Source of the DNA: Thomasclavelia sp.
GTDB taxonomy: Bacteria; Bacillota_I; Bacilli_A; Erysipelotrichales; Coprobacillaceae
Direction: 5' to 3'
NCBI GenBank assembly: GCA_028749475.1
Contig: JAQVWN010000018.1
Span: 1 to 36,173, forward strand
DNA length: 36,173 nt
Of this stretch, positions 12,841-34,151 are shown piece after piece. A program made the translations under genes and the position numbers. Every line of letters starts with the position of its first letter. Positions within the stretch are counted from its first letter, which is position 1. The notes under the pieces were generated by a model that was given only the letters and a program-made list of their open reading frames with translations, was not told the DNA's origin and made no database searches.

Positions 12841-15102
12841 ATGTCATTTATTAATTTTGATGTTGAATGGAAGGGCTTTAAAGGAAGACTTTGGAAAGAA
12901 GAAGTCAACACTCGCCAATTCATTCAAGACAACTACACACCATATGATGGTGATGAAACATTTTTAGCTGGACCTACAGAAGCTACAAACAAGCTTTGGG
13001 GTAAACTTCAAGAACTACAAAAAGAAGAAAGAGCTAAAGGTGGAGTATTAGACATGGAGACTAAAGTAGTAACAGGACTTACTGCTTATGGACCAGGTTA
13101 TATTGATGAAAGTATGAAAGACTTAGAAACTGTTGTAGGTCTTCAAACTGACAAACCACTTAAAAGAGCATTTATGCCTTATGGTGGAGTTAAGATGGCT
13201 GAACAAGCTTGTCAAACTTATGGTTATACACCAGATCCTGAATTACACAAGATCTTTACTGAATATCATAAGACTCATAACCAAGCTGTATTTGATGTTT
13301 ATACACCTGAAATTAGAAAAGCTCGTCACTCTCATGTAATCACTGGATTACCTGATACTTATGGACGTGGACGTATCGTTGGAGATTATCGTCGTGTAGC
13401 TTTATACGGAATTGATTACCTTATCGCAGAAAAACAAGAAGATTTAGCTAACTGTGGTAGTGGATCAATGACAGAAGACATCATTCGTAAAAGAGAAGAA
13501 ATTGCTGAACAAGTAAGAGCTCTTAATGGAATGAAAAAAATGGCAGAAGTTTATGGCTTTGATATTTCAAAACCAGCAAGCAACGCTAAAGAAGCTGTTC
13601 AATGGTTATACTTTGGTTACTTAGCAGCTATCAAAACTCAAAATGGTGCTGCAATGTCTGTTGGACGTGTATCTACTTTCTTAGATATCTATATCGAAAG
13701 AGATTTAGCTAACGGAACACTTAATGAAGAAGGAGCTCAAGAATTAATTGACCATTTCGTTATGAAATGTCGTATGGTTAAATTTGCTCGTATCCCTTCA
13801 TACAATGAATTATTCTCAGGAGATCCAGTTTGGGCTACTCTTGAAGTAGGTGGACTTGGAACTGATGGAAGATCAATGGTTACAAAAAACTGTTTCCGTT
13901 TCTTACATACATTAGAAGACATGGGACCTTCTCCAGAACCAAACTTAACTGTTTTATATACTGAAGCATTACCTGCAACATTTAAGAAATATGCAGCTCG
14001 TATTTCAGTTGAAACAAGTTCAATTCAATATGAAAATGATGATGTCATGAGACCTGTATGGGGAGACGACTATTCAATTTGTTGTTGTGTATCTGCAACA
14101 CAAACTGGTAAAGAAATGCAATTCTTTGGGGCTCGTGCAAATCTAGCAAAATGTTTACTTTACGCTATCAATGGTGGAGTAGATGAAAAAGAAAAGAATC
14201 AAGTAGGACCTGAATATCGTCCTATTACTTCAGAATACTTAGACTATGATGAAGTATGTCATCGTTTTGATGACATGATGGATTGGTTAGCAGATTTATA
14301 TGTTAATACATTAAACCTAATTCAATACATGCATGATAAATACTATTATGAAGCAGCTGAAATGGCTTTAATTGATACTGATGTAAGAAGAACATTCGCA
14401 ACTGGTATTGCTGGATTCTCTCACGTAGTTGATTCACTTTCTGCAATCAAATATGCAAAAGTAAAAACTATTAGAGATGAAAACGGAATCGTTGTTGATT
14501 ATGATATTGATGGAGATTTCCCTAAATATGGTAATGATGACGATCGTGCTGATGAAATTGCTGTTAAATTACTTGGTGACTTCTTAACTAAGATTAAGAA
14601 ACATCATACTTACCGTAATTCAGAACCAACTACTTCAATCTTAACTATTACTTCTAACGTAGTATATGGTAAAGCTACAGGAGCTCTTCCTGATGGTAGA
14701 GAAGCTGGTGCTCCACTTGCTCCAGGTGCAAACCCTGCTTATGGTGCAGAACAACATGGTTTACTTGCTTCACTTAACTCAGTAGCTAAACTTCCATATG
14801 AATGGGCTTTAGATGGTATTTCTAATACTCAAACTATTAACCCTGATGCTCTTGGACATGATACTACTGAAAGAAAAGAAAAACTTGTAACAGTATTAGA
14901 TGGATACTTCAAACAAGGAGCTCACCATTTAAATGTTAATGTATTTGGAAAAGAAAAATTAGTTGATGCTATGGAACATCCAGAAAAAGAAGAATATGCA
15001 AACTTTACAATTCGTGTATCTGGATATGCCGTTAAATTTATTGATTTAACTCGTGAACAACAATTAGACGTTATTGCTAGAACTTGTCACGATCATATGT
15101 AA
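12841..15102 (+). CDS. pflB: Formate C-acetyltransferase (pyruvate formate-lyase)
   Basis: PFL converts pyruvate and CoA to acetyl-CoA and formate in anaerobic fermentation. The 753 residues are the usual length. The glycyl-radical motif RVSGYAV lies near the C-terminus with the radical at G728; the catalytic cysteine pair is C415-C416 in SICCCVSAT, with an extra cysteine (C414) just before it. The N-terminus begins [26 protein letters not shown] precedes the start. Codons are more uniform than in neighbouring genes, consistent with high expression. A GC-rich hairpin separates it from its activase gene pflA, probably to keep activase levels low. The enzyme needs activation and is destroyed by oxygen. 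Confidence 0.97.
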
Positions 15103-15104
15103 AA

Positions 15105-15134
15105 AATAAAGCAGCCTTTAAAGGCTGCTTTATT
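15105..15134 (+). terminator. Hairpin between pflB and pflA (attenuating terminator)
   Basis: AATAAAGCAGCC (15105-15116) pairs perfectly with GGCTGCTTTATT (15123-15134). The T-tract is short and the pflA ribosome site follows at once, so part of transcription probably reads through to make less activase than PFL. Confidence 0.75.
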
Positions 15135-18250: not shown

Positions 18251-18304
18251 ATTTATGTATATTTATTTTAATATTTGATAGAATGTATTAAGGAGATAAA
18301 TTGT

Positions 18305-19192
18305 ATGGATAATATCATTGAACTAAATAATTTAAAAAAATTATATAAAAAGAATATTGCAATTGATGGTGTAAATCTAGAAGTAAAACCTAATCAAATA
18401 TATGGCTTTGTTGGACCTAATGGGGCTGGTAAGTCTACTACTATTAAAATAATGTTAGATTTAATTAGAAGTGATGAAGGAGTAGCTAAAATCTTTAACT
18501 TAGATTGTAAAAATGATACTGAGATTATTAAAAGAGATCTTGGTTTTGTATCTAGTGATGTTCGGTTTTATAACTTTATGTCGGTAAAAGACATAATTAA
18601 TAAGACATTGAAATTTTATAATCTGAAATATTATGATGACATTGATAAAATGATTGAATATCTACAAATAGATACTTCTAAGAAATTAACTGAGTTATCC
18701 CTTGGAAACAAAAAAAAGATTGCAATAGTATGTGCTCTAATTCATCATCCAAAACTAATAATCCTTGATGAACCAACTAGTGGTTTAGACCCTTTAATTC
18801 AAAAAAGACTATTCGTTTTATTGCAAGAAGCTGTTAAAAAGGGGAGTACGGTGTTTTTATCATCACATAACTTACAAGAAGTTGAAACATATTGTGATAA
18901 TGTTGCTTTTATTAAAGATGGGAAAATAATAAGAGTTCAAAATTTAAAAGAAAAAGGGATAAAGCATACTAAAGATGTTTATCTTACTGGTAAGATAGAC
19001 AAGGAAGATTTAAATAATATTGATATTAAATTAATCGAAAATGATGAAAATCATTTACATTTTCATTATCAAGGTGACAGTCAAGATTTAATAAAAGCAA
19101 TTAGTAATTTGAATATCATTGATATTCAAATCCGTAATCTTTCACTAGAAGAAGAATTTATGCATTACTATGAGGGGAAAGATCATGAATAA
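18305..19192 (+). CDS. ABC transporter ATP-binding protein
   Basis: This 295-residue ATPase powers the membrane partner encoded next. Walker A is GPNGAGKST (37-45) and Walker B LIILDEPTSGLD (151-162). The signature reads LSLGN (131-135) rather than LSGGQ, and the usual Q-loop glutamine is not evident (FVSSD). A C-terminal domain of about 80 residues is typical of BcrA/CcmA-type exporters. The ATG at 18305 is preceded by AAGGAG about ten bases upstream; an earlier start would read through that site. It overlaps the permease gene by 8 bases (ATGAATAA). The substrate is unknown; lipids, antimicrobial peptides and antibiotics are usual for this class. Confidence 0.9.
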   Translation: MDNIIELNNLKKLYKKNIAIDGVNLEVKPNQIYGFVGPNGAGKSTTIKIMLDLIRSDEGVAKIFNLDCKNDTEIIKRDLGFVSSDVRFYNFMSVKDIINKTLKFYNLKYYDDIDKMIEYLQIDTSKKLTELSLGNKKKIAIVCALIHHPKLIILDEPTSGLDPLIQKRLFVLLQEAVKKGSTVFLSSHNLQEVETYCDNVAFIKDGKIIRVQNLKEKGIKHTKDVYLTGKIDKEDLNNIDIKLIENDENHLHFHYQGDSQDLIKAISNLNIIDIQIRNLSLEEEFMHYYEGKDHE

Positions 19193-20000
19193 ACTAAATA
19201 TATTTAAATTAGAATTAAAGGCCAACTCTCGTTCTTTTCTACTTTGGAGTGTGGCTTGTAGCATTCTTTTAGTAATTTATATTCTATTATTTCCGATGAT
19301 GGAACAAATGGATATAAATAGTATGATGTCTCAAATGACTAACACAATGCCTGAAGCACTAACTAAAATGTTTGGAATGGATGGTATAAAAGATTATAGT
19401 TCACTTTCTAATTACTTAACTGTTGTTTTATCAGAGTTTAATATCTTTATTCTTATTTATGGAGCTTATCTAGGAGGTACTACTCTAGTTAAAGAAGAAA
19501 GTGAAGGAACAATTGAATATTTATATTCAATGCCGGTAACTAGAACTAAAATATTTTTTGAAAAGTTACTAGCAATTGTATTTTTATATTTTGGCTTTAT
19601 GGTTATTAATGTAATTGTTGGAATTGTTAGTTCTTTCTTTGTGACAAATGTTGATTTTAATTTAGTAAAAGATTTCTTAAAACTATTCTCTAGTGCTTTT
19701 ATAGTTGGATTAGTCTATTTATCACTTGGCTATTTTAGTAGTACGCTACTAAGATCAACTAAACAAGCTATCGCTTTATCAATCGGAATGGTATTAGTGA
19801 CTTTTATCATTGGTTCGTTCTCAGGAATAAGTGAATCACTTGATTGGATTAAGTATCTTGCTCCAATTAATTATTGTAATGGCTCAGATATTTTAACTAG
19901 TGGTTTTAGTTTAACCTATGGATTATTATCTGTTGGAATAATAGTTGTGAGTATTGGATTATCGTATTATATTTATCGAAAAAAAGATTTCAAAGTATAA
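19185..20000 (+). CDS. ABC-2 type membrane permease
   Basis: The 271-residue partner of the preceding ATPase has about six membrane helices: one near the N-terminus (LWSVACSILLVIYILL), a long external segment, and five more ending at YYIYRKKDFKV. The cytoplasmic motif EESEGTIEYLYSMPVTRTKI is characteristic of ABC-2 exporters. The ATG at 19185 follows GAGGGG and overlaps the ATPase stop. The pair ends at a strong terminator and is directly followed by a padR-led operon, but that operon has its own promoter. Confidence 0.9.
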   Translation: MNKLNIFKLELKANSRSFLLWSVACSILLVIYILLFPMMEQMDINSMMSQMTNTMPEALTKMFGMDGIKDYSSLSNYLTVVLSEFNIFILIYGAYLGGTTLVKEESEGTIEYLYSMPVTRTKIFFEKLLAIVFLYFGFMVINVIVGIVSSFFVTNVDFNLVKDFLKLFSSAFIVGLVYLSLGYFSSTLLRSTKQAIALSIGMVLVTFIIGSFSGISESLDWIKYLAPINYCNGSDILTSGFSLTYGLLSVGIIVVSIGLSYYIYRKKDFKV

Positions 20001-20025
20001 ACTATGTCAATGACATAGTTTTTTT
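19999..20025 (+). terminator. Terminator of the ABC-2 exporter pair
   Basis: AAACTATGTC (19999-20008) pairs with GACATAGTTT (20012-20021) over AAT, followed by TTTTT. The loop is short, but the outer stem is strong. Confidence 0.88.
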
Positions 20026-20026
20026 G

Positions 20027-20055
20027 TTGACAAACAATATTATACGCCATATAAT
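20027..20055 (+). promoter_or_regulatory. Consensus promoter of the padR operon
   Basis: A perfect TTGACA (20027-20032), 17-base spacer and perfect TATAAT (20050-20055) directly follow the upstream terminator. Such a strong promoter usually needs a repressor; the palindrome over its spacer and -10 is the likely site. Confidence 0.92.
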
Positions 20056-20061
20056 ATTGTT
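20033..20061. promoter_or_regulatory. Perfect palindrome on the padR promoter (candidate PadR operator)
   Basis: AACAATATTATA (20033-20044) and TATAATATTGTT (20050-20061) are exact reverse complements separated by CGCCA. The palindrome fills the promoter spacer and covers the -10. PadR regulators bind as dimers and commonly repress their own operon, so self-repression by the PadR encoded next is the simplest reading. Confidence 0.8.
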
Positions 20062-20086
20062 GAAATCAAAGGTAGGAGGTCAAAAT

Positions 20087-20407
20087 ATGATATTTAATAC
20101 CGGAGCAGCCTTACTTGATGCAATAGTGTTAAGCGTTGTTGCAAAAGAAAAAGATGGCACGTATGGTTATAAAATAACTCATGATATCCGTAAAGGATTA
20201 GATGTTTCTGAGTCAACGTTATACCCAGTGCTTAGGAGATTACAAAAAGATAAATGTTTAGAGACATATGATAAACAAATAGATGGGAGAAATAGAAGAT
20301 ATTATCGAATTACTAATAATGGGATAGTAACATTAGAGATGTATCGTGGTGAGTGGGATAAATATGTTAGTAAAATAAACTCACTAATCGAAGGAGGGGA
20401 CGAGTAA
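20087..20407 (+). CDS. PadR-family transcriptional regulator
   Basis: A 106-residue winged-helix repressor of the short PadR type. It has TYGYKITHDI, the recognition-helix region SESTLYPVLRRLQKDKCLE, the wing with GRNRRYYRIT, and a short C-terminal helix for dimer formation. GGAGG lies before the ATG at 20087; a longer reading frame extends upstream through the operator but has no suitable ribosome site. It heads an operon with HAAS, DUF4097 and PspC genes, and overlaps the next gene as TAATG. Known PadR proteins of this kind repress exporters or envelope-stress genes and are released by drugs or membrane stress; the inducer here is unknown. Confidence 0.93.
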   Translation: MIFNTGAALLDAIVLSVVAKEKDGTYGYKITHDIRKGLDVSESTLYPVLRRLQKDKCLETYDKQIDGRNRRYYRITNNGIVTLEMYRGEWDKYVSKINSLIEGGDE

Positions 20408-21105
20408 TGAATAAAGAACAATTTTTAAATCAATTATCATATTTACTTCAAGATATTGCTGAAAATGAAAGAAATGAAGCAATGGATTACTACACTAGTT
20501 ATTTTGAAGAAGCTGGTGCCAGTCACGAACAAGATGTTATAAATGAACTAGGATCACCAGAAAAGGTTGCGGCTATTATTAAAGGTGGTTTAGATAGTAC
20601 TTATGAAAAAGGTTTTGAATATGGTGATAGTGGAGTAGATGATAACTATCAAGAAGGCAATAATAAAGTCATTGAGCATGCATATACTACTAAAGAAGAA
20701 AAGACTACAAACTCTAATCCAATTAATGGTTATAATGAAAAGAATAATACATTAGTTAAAATACTAATTGTTATCGCATTTGTTATTTTAATCTTTCCAA
20801 TAGGTGGAACAATTGGGGGATTATTTGTTGGCTTTATCGGATTAATGATTGCCTTATTTTGTACTGGTATATTTGGAACAATTGGTTTAGTCATTGGAAG
20901 TATTGCTTTAATAGTGGCTGCTGTAACCTTCTTTACTTCAGGGGCTATAGGGACAGGAATTTTACTACTTGGAATTGCTTGTTTACTGCTAGCAGCTAGT
21001 TATTTAACTACTGCTTTAGCTAAACTACTAATTACTTTTGTTCCAAAAGTAATTAGAGGGATAGTTCAAACAATTAAAAATGTCTTTAATAAGGTAGGTG
21101 CTTAA
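20407..21105 (+). CDS. HAAS (DUF1700) domain membrane protein
   Basis: The N-terminus (about 1-65: MNKEQFLNQLSYLLQDI ... VINELGSPEKVAAII) is the HAAS or DUF1700 domain, a small helical module often encoded next to PadR regulators. A charged, Asn-rich linker (about 70-115) leads to a glycine-rich hydrophobic half (about 116-210) with three or four probable membrane helices. HAAS proteins are thought to work with the PadR regulator and DUF4097 partners in envelope or antimicrobial stress, but the mechanism is not settled. It overlaps padR by one base and the next gene follows one base after its stop. Confidence 0.85.
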   Translation: MNKEQFLNQLSYLLQDIAENERNEAMDYYTSYFEEAGASHEQDVINELGSPEKVAAIIKGGLDSTYEKGFEYGDSGVDDNYQEGNNKVIEHAYTTKEEKTTNSNPINGYNEKNNTLVKILIVIAFVILIFPIGGTIGGLFVGFIGLMIALFCTGIFGTIGLVIGSIALIVAAVTFFTSGAIGTGILLLGIACLLLAASYLTTALAKLLITFVPKVIRGIVQTIKNVFNKVGA

Positions 21106-21106
21106 A

Positions 21107-21868
21107 ATGAAAACATATCGAAGAGTTTCACTTGTTTTACTAATAGTAGGAATATTACTTTGTTGTGTTGGAATTGGTATGGGTGGCCATCAAAAACTAA
21201 TGTCTAGTGCCTCATCACTTAATCGTTATTTAGTGTTTAATTTTGAAAAGGGAGAAAGTTTTACTAAAGAATTAGAACTACCTAGTAATAGTAATTTATC
21301 TATCAAGGTTGAAGGAGTTAATTCAAATATTGAATATTATGATGGAACAACTATAAAAGTTGAAACCAATAATGTTAGTAGCGAATATGACTTTTCCTCA
21401 GCTAATAATGAAATTAATATGGAATTTGAAGGATGTACAAATTTAAGTAGTAGATCTAAAGTAGTAATTTATATACCTAAAGATTATATGTTTAATAATG
21501 TAAACATAACAGTTGAAGCATCTGATTTTAAGTTTGATAGTCTTAAATGTAATCAGTTTATATATGATAGTGATGCTGGTAATTTGAAAGCTGAAGACTT
21601 AGAATGTACTGGAAAGGTATCATTAGAAGGTGATGCCGCTAGTATTGATATTAGTTTAATTAGTTGTAATGGACTAGATTTAGATATGAATGCTGGAAAT
21701 ATAAAAACAGTACTAGCAGGTAATAGAGATGATTATTGTATTAATAAAGATGCTGATGTAAGTACTGTTACTATTGAAAATGAACATCATGGAGAGAATC
21801 ATGGATCTAAAATAGTTAATGTAGATTGTGATGCTGGAAATGTGGAAATTAAATTTAAGGGGGAATAG
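21107..21868 (+). CDS. Membrane-anchored DUF4097 protein
   Basis: The 253-residue protein has one N-terminal membrane helix (about 9-28) and an extracytoplasmic part with the repeating short beta-strand pattern of DUF4097 (putative adhesin-like beta solenoid), seen in repeats such as SDAGNLKAEDLECTGKVSL, DMNAGNIKT and DCDAGNVEI. A ribosome site AAGGTAGG precedes the ATG at 21107; a GTG at 21098 is in frame but overlaps that site. Like YvlB and LiaG-type relatives, it is encoded with PspC and PadR genes, suggesting an envelope-stress role. Confidence 0.8.
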   Translation: MKTYRRVSLVLLIVGILLCCVGIGMGGHQKLMSSASSLNRYLVFNFEKGESFTKELELPSNSNLSIKVEGVNSNIEYYDGTTIKVETNNVSSEYDFSSANNEINMEFEGCTNLSSRSKVVIYIPKDYMFNNVNITVEASDFKFDSLKCNQFIYDSDAGNLKAEDLECTGKVSLEGDAASIDISLISCNGLDLDMNAGNIKTVLAGNRDDYCINKDADVSTVTIENEHHGENHGSKIVNVDCDAGNVEIKFKGE

Positions 21869-21871
21869 AAG

Positions 21872-22069
21872 ATGAATGAACCAAAAAAATTATATCGCTG
21901 TGGGAAAGATAAGATGGTATGTGGAGTTTGTGGAGGAATCGCAAGATATTTTAATGTCGATCCTTCATTAATTAGAATACTAACTGTTCTTGTATGTTTT
22001 GCTTGGGGAACAGGATTAATTGCTTACATAATTGCGGCTTGTATTTTACCAGTTAATCCATACGAATAA
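21872..22069 (+). CDS. PspC-domain membrane protein
   Basis: This 65-residue protein is essentially one PspC domain: KLYRCGKDKMVCGVCGGIARY, then FNVDPSLIRIL, and two membrane helices ending in CILPVNPYE. PspC domains take part in phage-shock and LiaFSR-type envelope responses, sensing membrane damage or interacting with partners. AAGGGGG precedes the ATG, three bases after the DUF4097 stop. It closes the PadR-led operon before a strong terminator. Confidence 0.93.
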   Translation: MNEPKKLYRCGKDKMVCGVCGGIARYFNVDPSLIRILTVLVCFAWGTGLIAYIIAACILPVNPYE

Positions 22070-22071
22070 TC

Positions 22072-22099
22072 AAAAAGCTACCTAGGTAGCTTTTGTTTT
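22072..22099 (+). terminator. Terminator of the PadR-PspC operon
   Basis: AAAAGCTACC (22073-22082) pairs with GGTAGCTTTT (22085-22094), centred on CTAG, followed by a T-rich tail. Confidence 0.88.
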
Positions 22100-22146
22100 A
22101 AATAAGTGTGATAAAAAACTATCACTATAATAAAATAATTATTAAT

Positions 22147-22168
22147 TTTTGGGATGAATTTCCCAAAA
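22147..22168. promoter_or_regulatory. Inverted repeat upstream of the opp promoter
   Basis: TTTTGGGA (22147-22154) and TCCCAAAA (22161-22168) flank TGAATT, ending five bases before the -35. Its place suggests an operator for an activator or repressor of opp. It does not match CcpA or CodY consensus well. The regulator is unknown. Confidence 0.5.
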
Positions 22169-22172
22169 TCAA

Positions 22173-22201
22173 TTGACAATGTAGGTGATATAGCATATTA
22201 T
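22173..22201 (+). promoter_or_regulatory. opp operon promoter
   Basis: TTGACA (22173-22178), a 17-base spacer and TATTAT (22196-22201) form a strong promoter. Transcription should start near 22208, giving a leader of about 45 bases. Confidence 0.85.
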
Positions 22202-22213
22202 ACATACATAAAG

Positions 22214-22233
22214 ATTGTATACAAACATACAAT
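22214..22233 (+). promoter_or_regulatory. Leader hairpin next to the oppA ribosome site
   Basis: ATTGTAT (22214-22220) and ATACAAT (22227-22233) pair around ACAAAC in the oppA leader, just before the AAGGGG ribosome site. It may stabilise the mRNA or tune translation. AT-rich composition leaves chance possible. Confidence 0.4.
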
Positions 22234-22252
22234 TGGAAGGGGAAAGAAAATT

Positions 22253-23887
22253 ATGAAAAAGATTTTAGCTATTTTTTGTAGTTTTGCAATGGCATTCTCA
22301 TTAGTTGGATGTGGTGGAAGTTCTTCTAGTGCTTCTGATGAGTTTACATTTGTAAGTGAACTTGATATTAACACATTAGATTCAACTGTATCTGATGATG
22401 GTATGTCATTTAATGCAATGCATGCATGTATTGATGGTCTAATGGGCTTAAACGCCAAAGGTAAGATCGTTAACGCTTTAGTTGATAAAGTTGAAAAAAG
22501 TGATGACGGATTAACTTATACTTACACATTAAGAGATGATGCTAACTGGTCTAATGGAGACCCTGTTACTTCTGATGACTTTGTTTATGCATGGCAAAGA
22601 ATTATTAAAAATGCTGGTAACTATGCTTACATGATGGGAAGCGAAGGAGCTAACATTGCTGGTGCTGATGCTTTAATGGAAAAACAAAGTGAAGGTACTG
22701 ATTTAACTGATGCTGATATGGAAACTCTTGGTATCAAAGCTGATGGTGATAAGAAGTTAGTAATTACTTTAGCTACACCTTGTTCTTACTTTGATGAATT
22801 AATGACATTCCCATGTTATTATCCAATCAATCGTAAATTTGCTGAAAAATGTGGAGATAAATATGGTACTAAAGCTGACTATATTATTTCAAATGGTGCA
22901 TTTAAAGTAAAATCATGGGATCTTGGAACTCAAATCGTTTATGAAAAGAATTCTAAGTATTACAACAAAAAAGCAGTTAAACTTAATAAATTAACTATGT
23001 TATTAAAACAAGATTATAAAACTGCTGCTACTTCATTTGATTCAGGAAACAATGATTTCTGTTCAATCAATAGTTCATTAGTTGATAAATATAAAGATGA
23101 AAAATCTTATACAACTTATTCAGAAGGATATTTATTCTACTTACAATTAAATATGAAGACTGCTTCATTAAATAATTATAATGTACGTAAAGCATTATCT
23201 CTTGCAATCAACAGAACAGACTTTGCTAAAAACGTATTAAAAGATGGATCTAAAGCTGCTACAGGATTTGTACCTAGCGGACTTTCTGAAAGCCCTGAAG
23301 GAACTGATTTCCGTAAAGATGCTGGAAGTTATGATTCAATTGCTTATAATGTAAAAGATGCTCAAGCTGCTCTAGATGCTGGACTTAAAGAATTAGGAAC
23401 TGATTCAATTACTTTAAGACTTACTTATGGTACTGATGAATCTCCTATGGATCAAATGGCAACTTACTTACAAAATGCTTTCTCTAAACTTAAAGGTTTA
23501 AAGATTGAAATGGTTGCTACAACTAAGAAAGATAGAATTTATACTAAACAAAAGAATGGTGATTTCGATATCGCTTGTACTCGTTGGGGACCTGACTATG
23601 GTGATCCTACAACTTACTTAAATCTATTAACAGCTAACAATGCAAACAACTATGGTAAATATACTAACTCTGCATATGATGCTAAGATGAAAGAAGTACA
23701 AACTGCTACTGATGTTAATGCTCGTTGGCAAGATATGGTAGATGCTGAAAAGATCGCTATGAATGATTTACCAAACATCCCAGTATTTGAAAAAGCTGCT
23801 GCAGTTTTAGTAAATACTGATTACACTGGTATCGTACATAAACCAGTTGGTGTTCCATATACATTCAATTATGTACATGCAAAATAA
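22253..23887 (+). CDS. oppA: Oligopeptide-binding lipoprotein
   Basis: The extracellular substrate-binding component of the Opp importer captures short peptides. The 544 residues start with a lipoprotein signal (MKKILAIFCSFAMAFSLVGC; lipidated C20) and a Ser-rich linker, followed by the SBP_bac_5 fold: SELDINTLDSTVSDDG, YTLRDDANWSNGDPVTSDDF, RKALSLAINR and, near the C-terminus, RWGPDYGDPTTYL. The ATG at 22253 follows AAGGGG; longer frames upstream run through the promoter. Codon use is smooth and A/T-ending, as expected for a highly expressed gene. A large hairpin after the gene probably stabilises its mRNA relative to the permease genes. Confidence 0.95.
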   Translation: MKKILAIFCSFAMAFSLVGCGGSSSSASDEFTFVSELDINTLDSTVSDDGMSFNAMHACIDGLMGLNAKGKIVNALVDKVEKSDDGLTYTYTLRDDANWSNGDPVTSDDFVYAWQRIIKNAGNYAYMMGSEGANIAGADALMEKQSEGTDLTDADMETLGIKADGDKKLVITLATPCSYFDELMTFPCYYPINRKFAEKCGDKYGTKADYIISNGAFKVKSWDLGTQIVYEKNSKYYNKKAVKLNKLTMLLKQDYKTAATSFDSGNNDFCSINSSLVDKYKDEKSYTTYSEGYLFYLQLNMKTASLNNYNVRKALSLAINRTDFAKNVLKDGSKAATGFVPSGLSESPEGTDFRKDAGSYDSIAYNVKDAQAALDAGLKELGTDSITLRLTYGTDESPMDQMATYLQNAFSKLKGLKIEMVATTKKDRIYTKQKNGDFDIACTRWGPDYGDPTTYLNLLTANNANNYGKYTNSAYDAKMKEVQTATDVNARWQDMVDAEKIAMNDLPNIPVFEKAAAVLVNTDYTGIVHKPVGVPYTFNYVHAK

Positions 23888-23908
23888 TTAAAAAAATTAT
23901 TCACTAAT

Positions 23909-23944
23909 AATAAACACATTATGGTGTAACATAATGTGTTTATT
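23909..23944 (+). terminator. Intercistronic hairpin between oppA and oppB
   Basis: AATAAACACATTATG (23909-23923) pairs perfectly over 15 bp with 23930-23944 around GTGTAA. The tail is not a clean T-tract and oppB has AAGGAGG soon after. This looks like partial termination or mRNA stabilisation giving excess binding protein. Confidence 0.7.
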
Positions 23945-23965
23945 AATATATAAGGAGGAAAAAAT

Positions 23966-32959: not shown

Positions 32960-34057
32960 ATGAATATTAAAGAAACAATAAAAAAATATAATCCCTTATT
33001 TGTGATTGGTATATTACTTATATTAATCTACAAGTTGTTAGAAACAACTTTCTTATCAACATTATTGTATGCCTTTCAACCAGTAATTATCGGAGCTGTA
33101 TTAGCCTATTTTTTACAACCATTAGTTGTTGGAGTTGAAAACAAACTTAAAAAAACTAGTGTTAAAAAATATGCTAGAATAATTTCTACTTTAATAATCT
33201 TTATTGGATTTATTTTAATTCTTTGTATATTACTATGGTATTTTATACCTATTATAATTAATAATGTCGTTAGCTTCGCTAATAACATAGGACACTACGC
33301 TAATAGTTTTGAAGAAACTATAAAAAGTAACGTTGATAATGTTTCTATTAGAAATGCTATTTTAGAATTTGAACAAACAGCACTTAATTGGACTAGTAAT
33401 GTTAAAGGAATTAAAGTGGATGTAGCGTTTAATTATATTTCAACCGCTTCTTCTACAATAATCACAATTCTTTTAGGGCTTATCTTTTGTCCATATATTT
33501 TAATTGAATTAAATAGATTAAGTATTATTTTTGATAAATTAATGAAAATATTTGTTAGTGATTATAATCTAGCATTAATACATAAATATATTCGCCGAAC
33601 TAATGAGATCTTTGGAAGGTTTATTTATGGGAAATTTATTGATTCAGTAATTATAGGAATTATAGCTTGTGTCGGATTTGGAATCCTTGGACTTAAGTTC
33701 TTCCCATTACTTGCGCTTATTATTTTAGTAACTAATATGATTCCATATTTTGGACCATTTATTGGAGCAATACCAGTTGTATTTGTTGCTCTTATTACTA
33801 ATGGATTAATGACAGCGTTGGTAACTGTTATATTTATTTTCATTCTTCAACAATTTGATGGTTTGATTCTAGGACCAAGAATTCTTGGTGGGACTGTTGG
33901 AATATCTCCATTTTGGATCATTACATCCATTACCGTATTTGGATCACTTTGGGGTGTTATTGGAATGTTCCTTGGAGTACCAATCATTTGTGTTATTAGA
34001 ATGTTCTTTAATGATTACATCGAATATCAAGAAAATAAAAAGATACAGGATAGTTAA
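32960..34057 (+). CDS. AI-2E-family membrane transporter
   Basis: The 365-residue protein has about eight membrane helices and the AI-2E/TqsA/PerM family pattern, including the AFQPVIIGAVLAYFLQPLV entry helix, NMIPYFGPFIGAIPV, and LGPRILGGTVGISPFWI near the C-terminus. Family members have been linked to autoinducer-2 release and to sodium/proton exchange; the substrate is not predictable. AGAGAGG precedes the ATG. The stop codon lies in the loop of an 11-bp hairpin, and tRNA-Arg begins 17 bases later. Confidence 0.9.
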   Translation: MNIKETIKKYNPLFVIGILLILIYKLLETTFLSTLLYAFQPVIIGAVLAYFLQPLVVGVENKLKKTSVKKYARIISTLIIFIGFILILCILLWYFIPIIINNVVSFANNIGHYANSFEETIKSNVDNVSIRNAILEFEQTALNWTSNVKGIKVDVAFNYISTASSTIITILLGLIFCPYILIELNRLSIIFDKLMKIFVSDYNLALIHKYIRRTNEIFGRFIYGKFIDSVIIGIIACVGFGILGLKFFPLLALIILVTNMIPYFGPFIGAIPVVFVALITNGLMTALVTVIFIFILQQFDGLILGPRILGGTVGISPFWIITSITVFGSLWGVIGMFLGVPIICVIRMFFNDYIEYQENKKIQDS

Positions 34058-34068
34058 CTATCCTGTAT
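34043..34068 (+). repeat. Perfect hairpin between the AI-2E gene and tRNA-Arg
   Basis: ATACAGGATAG (34043-34053) and CTATCCTGTAT (34058-34068) are exact reverse complements around TTAA, which includes the stop codon. No T-tract follows; the tRNA starts six bases later. It may be a processing or stability element rather than a terminator. Confidence 0.7.
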
Positions 34069-34074
34069 AATTAT

Positions 34075-34151
34075 GTCTTCGTAGCTCAGTTGGATAGAGC
34101 ACACGCCTCCTAAGCGTGGGGTCAGCAGTTCGAATCTGCTCGAGGACGCCA
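34075..34151 (+). tRNA. tRNA-Arg (anticodon CCT)
   Basis: The 77-base cloverleaf folds fully: acceptor GTCTTCG/CGAGGAC (one G-U pair), D-stem GCTC/GAGC, anticodon stem CACGC/GCGTG with loop CTCCTAA, T-stem AGCAG/CTGCT with TTCGAAT loop, discriminator G and an encoded CCA end. Anticodon CCT reads the AGG arginine codon, rare in this AT-rich DNA. No promoter lies between the AI-2E gene and the tRNA (a TATAAT at 34066-34071 is too close), so it is probably processed from a longer transcript. Confidence 0.97.

Follow-up and report, generated by a model that had tools for sequence, protein, structure and literature searches.

In the LltR operon of Listeria monocytogenes (lmo0599-lmo0600-lmo0601), a PadR gene is followed by genes for a DUF1700 and a DUF4097 protein. 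LltR represses its own operon, lltR-lmo0600-lmo0601, and in the lltR* helix mutant lmo0599, lmo0600 (DUF1700) and lmo0601 (DUF4097) are up 151-, 118- and 107-fold, respectively (PMC6624303); no LltR operator sequence was found in the accessible part of that paper. The HAAS domain was named in PMC11237479, which proposes HAAS-PadR systems as an alternative to two-component systems in envelope stress and proposes that HAAS signals to PadR by protein contact. The dyad described there consists of a HAAS gene beside a gene for a standalone PadR-like wHTH protein, often with Toastrack and PspC genes, and the accessible part of the paper yielded no operator for the Toastrack/PspC type.

For PadR-s2 proteins a shared ATGT/ACAT operator, ATGT-N8-10-ACAT, has been suggested, with a degenerate CTGT-N8-ATAT suggested for bcPadR2 (PMC3506622). 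Sites of LmrR have 8- and 10-bp spacings (PMC5428041), and the bcPadR2 neighbour BCE3448 (2O3L) has been placed in the HAAS superfamily (PMC11237479). The PadR box ATGT-N8-ACAT of PadR and LmrR, for which degenerate forms have been suggested in bcPadR1 and bcPadR2, is dyad-symmetric and lies near the regulator's own promoter. LftR of Listeria, a PadR-2 protein tied to a multidrug transporter, binds OP-1, a partial palindrome within the LftR promoter region, with a Kd of 6.2 nM (PMC6457526).

The padR promoter and its palindrome

We analysed a 36,173-nt stretch of Thomasclavelia sp. DNA (the window) that carries a related operon on its forward strand. The first gene (20087..20407), preceded by a ribosome-binding site AGGAGG (20074..20079) 7 nt 5' of its start codon, encodes a 106-aa PadR subfamily-2 regulator (PF03551, E 8.7e-16). 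It is followed by genes for a 232-aa HAAS (DUF1700-type) protein (20407..21105; PF22564, E 3.7e-13), a 253-aa Toastrack (DUF4097) protein (21107..21868; PF13349, E 2.9e-10) and a 65-aa PspC-domain protein (21872..22069; PF04024, E 1.3e-23), the last three each above the Pfam cut-off, and a terminator-like hairpin of 9 pairs (22073..22094) closes the operon. Translation and Pfam bear out the initial annotation, made from the sequence alone, in placing padR first, and they put the HAAS gene second. The HAAS protein is probably membrane-bound, its C-terminal half being hydrophobic by eye. The window has the padR-DUF1700-DUF4097 order of the LltR operon and differs from that operon as described in having pspC. 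It also has the HAAS-PadR dyad adjacency, a HAAS gene beside a standalone PadR gene, with Toastrack and PspC. The link of the window PadR to HAAS and Toastrack sets it apart from LftR with its multidrug transporter.

Upstream, positions 18275-20000 hold an ABC-transporter gene pair (an ATPase and an ABC-2-type permease) with no regulator seen adjoining it, and its hairpin abuts the padR promoter. This intrinsic terminator (19999..20025, forward strand) has a 10-pair stem at 19999-20021 and a T-rich tail, and its T-run stops 1 bp short of the -35 box.

The padR promoter combines a -35 box TTGACA (20027..20032) and a -10 box TATAAT (20050..20055) with a 17-bp spacer, and is the sole 12/12 promoter-like site in 19900-22300. 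The palindrome, a putative operator at 20033..20061 with its dyad at 20047, starts right after TTGACA: its left arm AACAATATTATA (20033-20044) and right arm TATAATATTGTT (20050-20061) are fully complementary around the 5-bp centre CGCCA (20045-20049). Both the exact 12-bp palindrome and its placement over the spacer and -10 of a perfect promoter had been claimed in the initial annotation and are confirmed; the palindrome occupies the whole spacer and includes TATAAT within its right arm. Such a promoter may be tightly repressible.

We read the palindrome as the operator of the PadR encoded downstream, serving negative autoregulation with HAAS-mediated release under envelope stress, and give this whole reading a probability of about 0.88. 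Some PadR proteins are activators, and the window PadR might likewise bind here and activate, or mainly tune, the promoter. We regard this as very unlikely: the site reaches from the spacer over the -10 into the start region of a promoter that matches the consensus, the usual position for a repressor, and the Listeria regulators LltR, LstR and LftR have been classed as autorepressors (PMC6624303). The palindrome could also act in the leader RNA as a hairpin, attenuator or riboswitch, inverted repeats being able to fold as RNA. That is highly improbable, since with the -10 box inside the right arm transcripts should begin at about 20062, past the palindrome, and the sole Rfam match at gathering threshold in the whole window is the tRNA at 34075.

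Perfect inverted repeats (arms of at least 12, loop of at most 12) number 17 in the window when counted per centre and loop, or 7 distinct ones, several of them terminator-like by eye; in 200 dinucleotide shuffles the same count averaged 0.225 and never exceeded 4. A perfect 30-bp loopless palindrome at 15105-15134, just 3' of a pyruvate-formate-lyase-like gene (12841-15102), is probably a terminator. Another of 26 bp, ATACAGGATAGTTAACTATCCTGTAT at 34043-34068, overlaps an AI-2E-transporter-family gene at its end and lies 6 bp before the tRNA gene (34075-34148), with no T-run after it. An inverted repeat with 16-bp arms and a 6-bp loop (23908-23945) lies between a gene that by eye encodes a peptide-binding lipoprotein-like protein (22154-23887) and the next gene.

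Conservation upstream of orthologous padR genes

A protein scan returned 89 relatives of the window PadR, of which the best 80 (61-84% identity) were kept. By record title these come mostly from Lachnospiraceae and from Erysipelotrichaceae or Coprobacillaceae genera, with a few other Bacillota; for some genera the family placement is our assumption. Within 400 bp upstream of padR, the core AATATTATA-N5-TATAATATT (at most 3 mismatches in 18) is found in 78 of these best 80 loci, and the two loci that lack it are contig ends with 56 bp (L032) and 167 bp (L033) of upstream DNA. The remaining 700,667 bp of the 80 loci contain no core site with 0-2 mismatches, 6 with 3 and 42 with 4. The initial annotation had staked its reading on conservation of the palindrome upstream of orthologues; the palindrome is conserved, and the promoter register is retained. 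With the same palindrome standing before the same regulator gene in so many relatives, it is very probably a site for repression of the regulator's own operon.

We aligned the 79 sites (78 loci and the window) and numbered positions from the dyad (d) to either side. At d3-d6 and d8-d10, left and right of the dyad, 78 or all 79 of the sites agree on one A or T, which makes 14 near-invariant arm positions; selection at up to 3 core mismatches biases core columns upward, though any column could vary. Position d7 is variable (left T 0.90, C 0.10; right A 0.53, G 0.42), and conservation falls off past d10. The conserved motif is ATAYTATA-N5-TATARTAT, at 20037..20057 in the window, and belongs to a broader TAYTAT-N7-ATARTA class. 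The expectation of a clean motif for this PadR subgroup held for the core; the full 12-bp arms, or the 29-bp sequence, are not conserved.

The -10 box over the 79 sites is TATAAT in 42, TATAGT in 33 and another sequence in 4. TTGACA stands exactly 17 bp before it in 55, and 64 match at least 5 of the 6 bases. Half of the motif doubles as a -10 box and its arms are mainly A/T, and an AT-rich promoter might by luck carry a mirror image of TATAAT in its spacer. A chance palindrome of this kind is nevertheless the least probable of the readings and can be practically discounted: a shuffled window should contain the exact pattern (at most 3 mismatches) 0.01 times, the core recurs in 78 of 80 loci, and the left arm, in the spacer, is as invariant as the right arm. 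Sigma factors require no particular sequence in the promoter spacer.

Arm positions outside the core co-vary: d11 is symmetric in 46 of 78 sites against a shuffle mean of 31.0 (0 of 2000 shuffles that high) and d12 in 42 against 32.3 (p 0.0085), statistics that ignore relatedness in a set where near-identical species were kept (78 of the 79 site segments are distinct). Co-variation is absent at d7 (38 symmetric, shuffles 41.0) and not clear at d13-d19. Of the 79 loci, 30 carry two or three sites (at most 3 mismatches); among 32 spacings between neighbouring sites, 19 measure 32-33 bp, roughly three turns of the helix, and 5 measure 17 bp, with the sites overlapping. This suggests tandem operators that would hold two dimers on one face of the DNA.

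With profiles built for the scan, HAAS was found to adjoin padR in 80 of 81 loci, the sole miss being L081, which has 51 bp of downstream DNA; Toastrack is present in 77 and PspC in 53 of the 81, some of the contigs being short.

A PF03551 search of the organism's own genome (1.84 Mb, 97.9% complete) scored 6 candidates, of which one passed as a PadR (E <= 0.001). A genome scan for the palindrome, proposed in the initial annotation, matched the full pattern (at most 3 mismatches) at three places, one of them, the padR promoter, outside coding sequence. We set aside the other two (2 and 3 mismatches) as chance matches inside open reading frames, which by eye are alanine-racemase-like and nucleotidyltransferase-like.

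A PadR with at least 65% identity is encoded in 20 of the 43 family genomes scanned. Matches to AATATTATA-N5-TATAATATT (at most 2 mismatches) in the 43 genomes were about as many as those to a reversed control and so carry no information on a wider regulon; a -35-anchored pattern, TTGACN4AATAYTATAYRNNRTATARTATT (at most 3 mismatches), was used instead. It matched in 24 of the 43, including 19 of the 20 with such a PadR; in the twentieth, G015, the contig ends 56 bp before padR. Matches also occur in five of the other 23: before padR genes of a second subgroup in G001 and G006, and with 3 mismatches in G018, G021 and G022. There are extra 3-mismatch matches in G014 and G036. The second subgroup (38-46% identity; G001, G006, G027, G032 and G033, with a copy bearing an internal stop in G028) has its own version of the operator in the same register, at its most symmetric CACATAATACTAT-N7-ATAGTATTATGTG (G006). 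In one genome (G042, L125) an IS110-type transposase gene (PF01548, PF02371) separates the matching site from padR, putting about 1.65 kb between them. This transposase gene (L125:1898-3109; G042 C1, about 779.4-780.6 kb) splits the conserved promoter/operator from its operon.

Recognition helix and operator type

An AlphaFold2 model of the window PadR (40 sequences, pLDDT 90) has helices at 6-19, 27-37 and 42-54, strands at 58-65 and 68-75, and a C-terminal helix at 77-101. The closest solved structures are those of small PadR proteins, led by 3l7w of Streptococcus mutans, with further matches to 7wjp, 6abq (Listeria; presumably LftR) and 4esb. PadR-s2 proteins have about 100-110 residues, with a wHTH and a single C-terminal helix for dimerisation; length (106 aa), model, PF03551 and fold matches agree with this architecture, in which the C-terminal helix would serve dimerisation. 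The PadR-s2 segments YGY and YPxLxRL are present as Y26-G27-Y28 and Y46-P47-V48-L49-R50-R51-L52, invariant in the 40 aligned sequences. The alpha3 region reads S41-E42-S43-T44-L45-Y46-P47, which in the model opens alpha3 (helix 42-54). The PadR-s2 alpha3 motif is EGT(L/I)YPxLxRLE (PMC3506622), and here EST replaces EGT, S43 being invariant in the 40 sequences; this sub-variant of the consensus makes the window PadR a less typical PadR-s2 member. The residues of bcPadR1 and bcPadR2 that match Tyr46 and Arg51 have been named as likely DNA-binding (PMC3506622), and binding is lost in LftR Y48A (PMC6457526).

We scanned 395 genomes of the class, 135 of which have a PadR at E <= 1e-14, and took the best 30 places as loci L133-L162; the first six were the window and family members already covered, leaving 24 (L139-L162) that were analysed as new. 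All seven PadRs of 48-57% identity among these 24 have both operator and HAAS, and in more divergent PadRs the presence of the operator tracked the start of helix alpha3. Over the discovery set, 99 of 106 SEST-type PadRs have a site with at most 1 mismatch within 200 bp and 7 do not; with other helices 2 do (L151 and L159, each with 1 mismatch) and 18 do not. Six of the seven misses are explained by a site further upstream (L030, L031, L049), a contig end (L032, L033) or a gene with an internal stop (L176); L146, a SEST-type locus with no operator site, is a true miss.

The helix rule was fixed before the next 40 listed places were fetched for validation, skipping one already covered (G028:C81). 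Within 200 bp upstream, TAYTAT-N7-ATARTA (at most 1 mismatch) is present for 17 of 17 PadRs with [ST]ES[ST]LYP and for 4 of 23 others (Fisher p 7e-8), those four all being SESTIYP. Start codons were estimated and some estimates fall inside the gene, so the 200-bp regions used here and in the motif counts for other helices below can include as many as some tens of bases of coding sequence. Of 2500 resampled upstream regions of 400 bp, 5.4% contain a site with at most 1 mismatch. A reversed-arm control pattern (at most 1 mismatch) matches at 9 of the 17 validation loci with SEST-type helices and at none of the other 23, probably because the AT-rich operator resembles it, so this control cannot tell arm order from composition.

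We rejected the idea that HAAS linkage determines whether the operator is present. HAAS (E <= 0.1) is encoded at 14 of the 17 [ST]ES[ST]LYP validation loci and at 14 of the 19 loci with neither SEST[LI]YP nor operator, and with frequencies this similar HAAS linkage alone has no predictive value for the operator.

Another DNA-binding protein might use the palindrome, with PadR merely the first gene of the operon, given that the case for PadR as the binder is a correlation with its helix that includes shared descent. We consider this very unlikely: the palindrome is single outside coding sequence in its own genome, and the operator accompanies SEST-type PadRs and not those with other helices even in HAAS operons, since no operator (at most 1 mismatch) is present at any of the 19 loci in the validation set that lack SEST[LI]YP. 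The helix link is the best evidence for PadR as the binder, as read from sequence comparisons. Helix types cluster on the tree, so the link is partly shared descent. For this tree the helix was masked and one A-set row in five retained (102 rows, 87 columns). The four SESTIYP PadRs fall in a supported clade beside ENT and EGT rows, apart from the other SEST rows, and seven SESTLYT rows lie inside a well-supported, mostly SEST group at a position that is itself weakly supported. For a tree of so few columns, this hints that the helix-operator association is recurrent.

Other helices accompany other boxes, by patterns that were composed post hoc, after viewing the sequences. TRYTGTGT-N3-ACACARYA (at most 2 mismatches) occurs with 10 of 14 ENT-type PadRs and in 0/88 and 1/39 of the two SEST sets, and ATACCTCGTGATATGATGTAT (at most 2 mismatches) with 7 of 9 ESTxYT-type PadRs and in 0 of 157 other regions; no single motif shared by the upstream regions of the 15 EGT-type PadRs was found. 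TGTGT-N3-ACACA-like palindromes of the ENT type are seen at L151, L162, L183, L189, L190, L195, L200, L206 and L212-L214, where alpha3 has ENA in L206 and DNT in L213, and some ENT-type promoters apparently carry two palindromes. The SESTLYT PadRs of L154, L158, L187, L191, L199, L202 and L207 share a near-identical ATACCTCGTGATATGATGTAT box, which by eye lies over the -10 region.

The PadR box was also tried as the operator and rejected: ATGT-N8/9/10-ACAT is absent from 20033-20061 and rare in the subgroup, exact ATGT-N8-ACAT occurring in 5/88 and 1/39 of the SEST-set upstream regions and in 0/39 of the remaining regions. The window operator is like the PadR box in being dyad-symmetric and near its own promoter, and by our own arithmetic some 6 bp separate half-site centre and dyad in each of the two; the half-site is TAYTAT rather than ATGT. 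A code for HAAS-type PadRs, by which an alpha3 opening S/T-E-S-T-L/I-Y-P sets the half-site TAYTAT, ENT for EST goes with TGT for TAT and YT for YP goes with ATACCTCGTGATATGATGTAT, would make the operator predictable from the protein; we put it forward tentatively, at somewhat under even odds.

Proposed mechanism and implications

In the proposed mechanism, a PadR dimer would sit symmetrically on the palindrome with its two alpha3 helices in successive major grooves around the dyad at 20047. Bound PadR would mask the spacer, the -10 and the start-site region and shut out RNA polymerase, closing padR-HAAS-Toastrack-pspC in negative autoregulation. Under envelope stress HAAS, aided by Toastrack and PspC, would capture or alter PadR, and the strong promoter would fire. 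Binding by the window PadR is suggested by the helix link and by LftR and other PadR precedents; repression as the direction of control is suggested by the promoter overlap and the genetics of LltR. The position and conservation of the operator point to self-repression of the LltR type, and the HAAS release step would follow the proposal in PMC11237479. The signal that the gene cluster presumably detects is cell-envelope damage.

The type of system is known, and the operator class and helix link look new: the top-ranked papers searched, few of them from subscription journals, included none on a TAYTAT-N7-ATARTA operator or a helix link, and a search with the motif letters found nothing relevant. 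With its 21-bp core defined at each base, its recognition helix predicted and its outliers named, the system is directly testable. The finding provides an operator candidate for one HAAS-PadR subgroup, the nearest earlier one being the degenerate bcPadR2 site (PMC3506622), and argues against the one common operator that the same paper suggested for PadR-s2 proteins. If the helix code is true, the ATGT of the PadR box would be one member of a family of boxes that share a register, and the link would permit operator prediction across many Bacillota.
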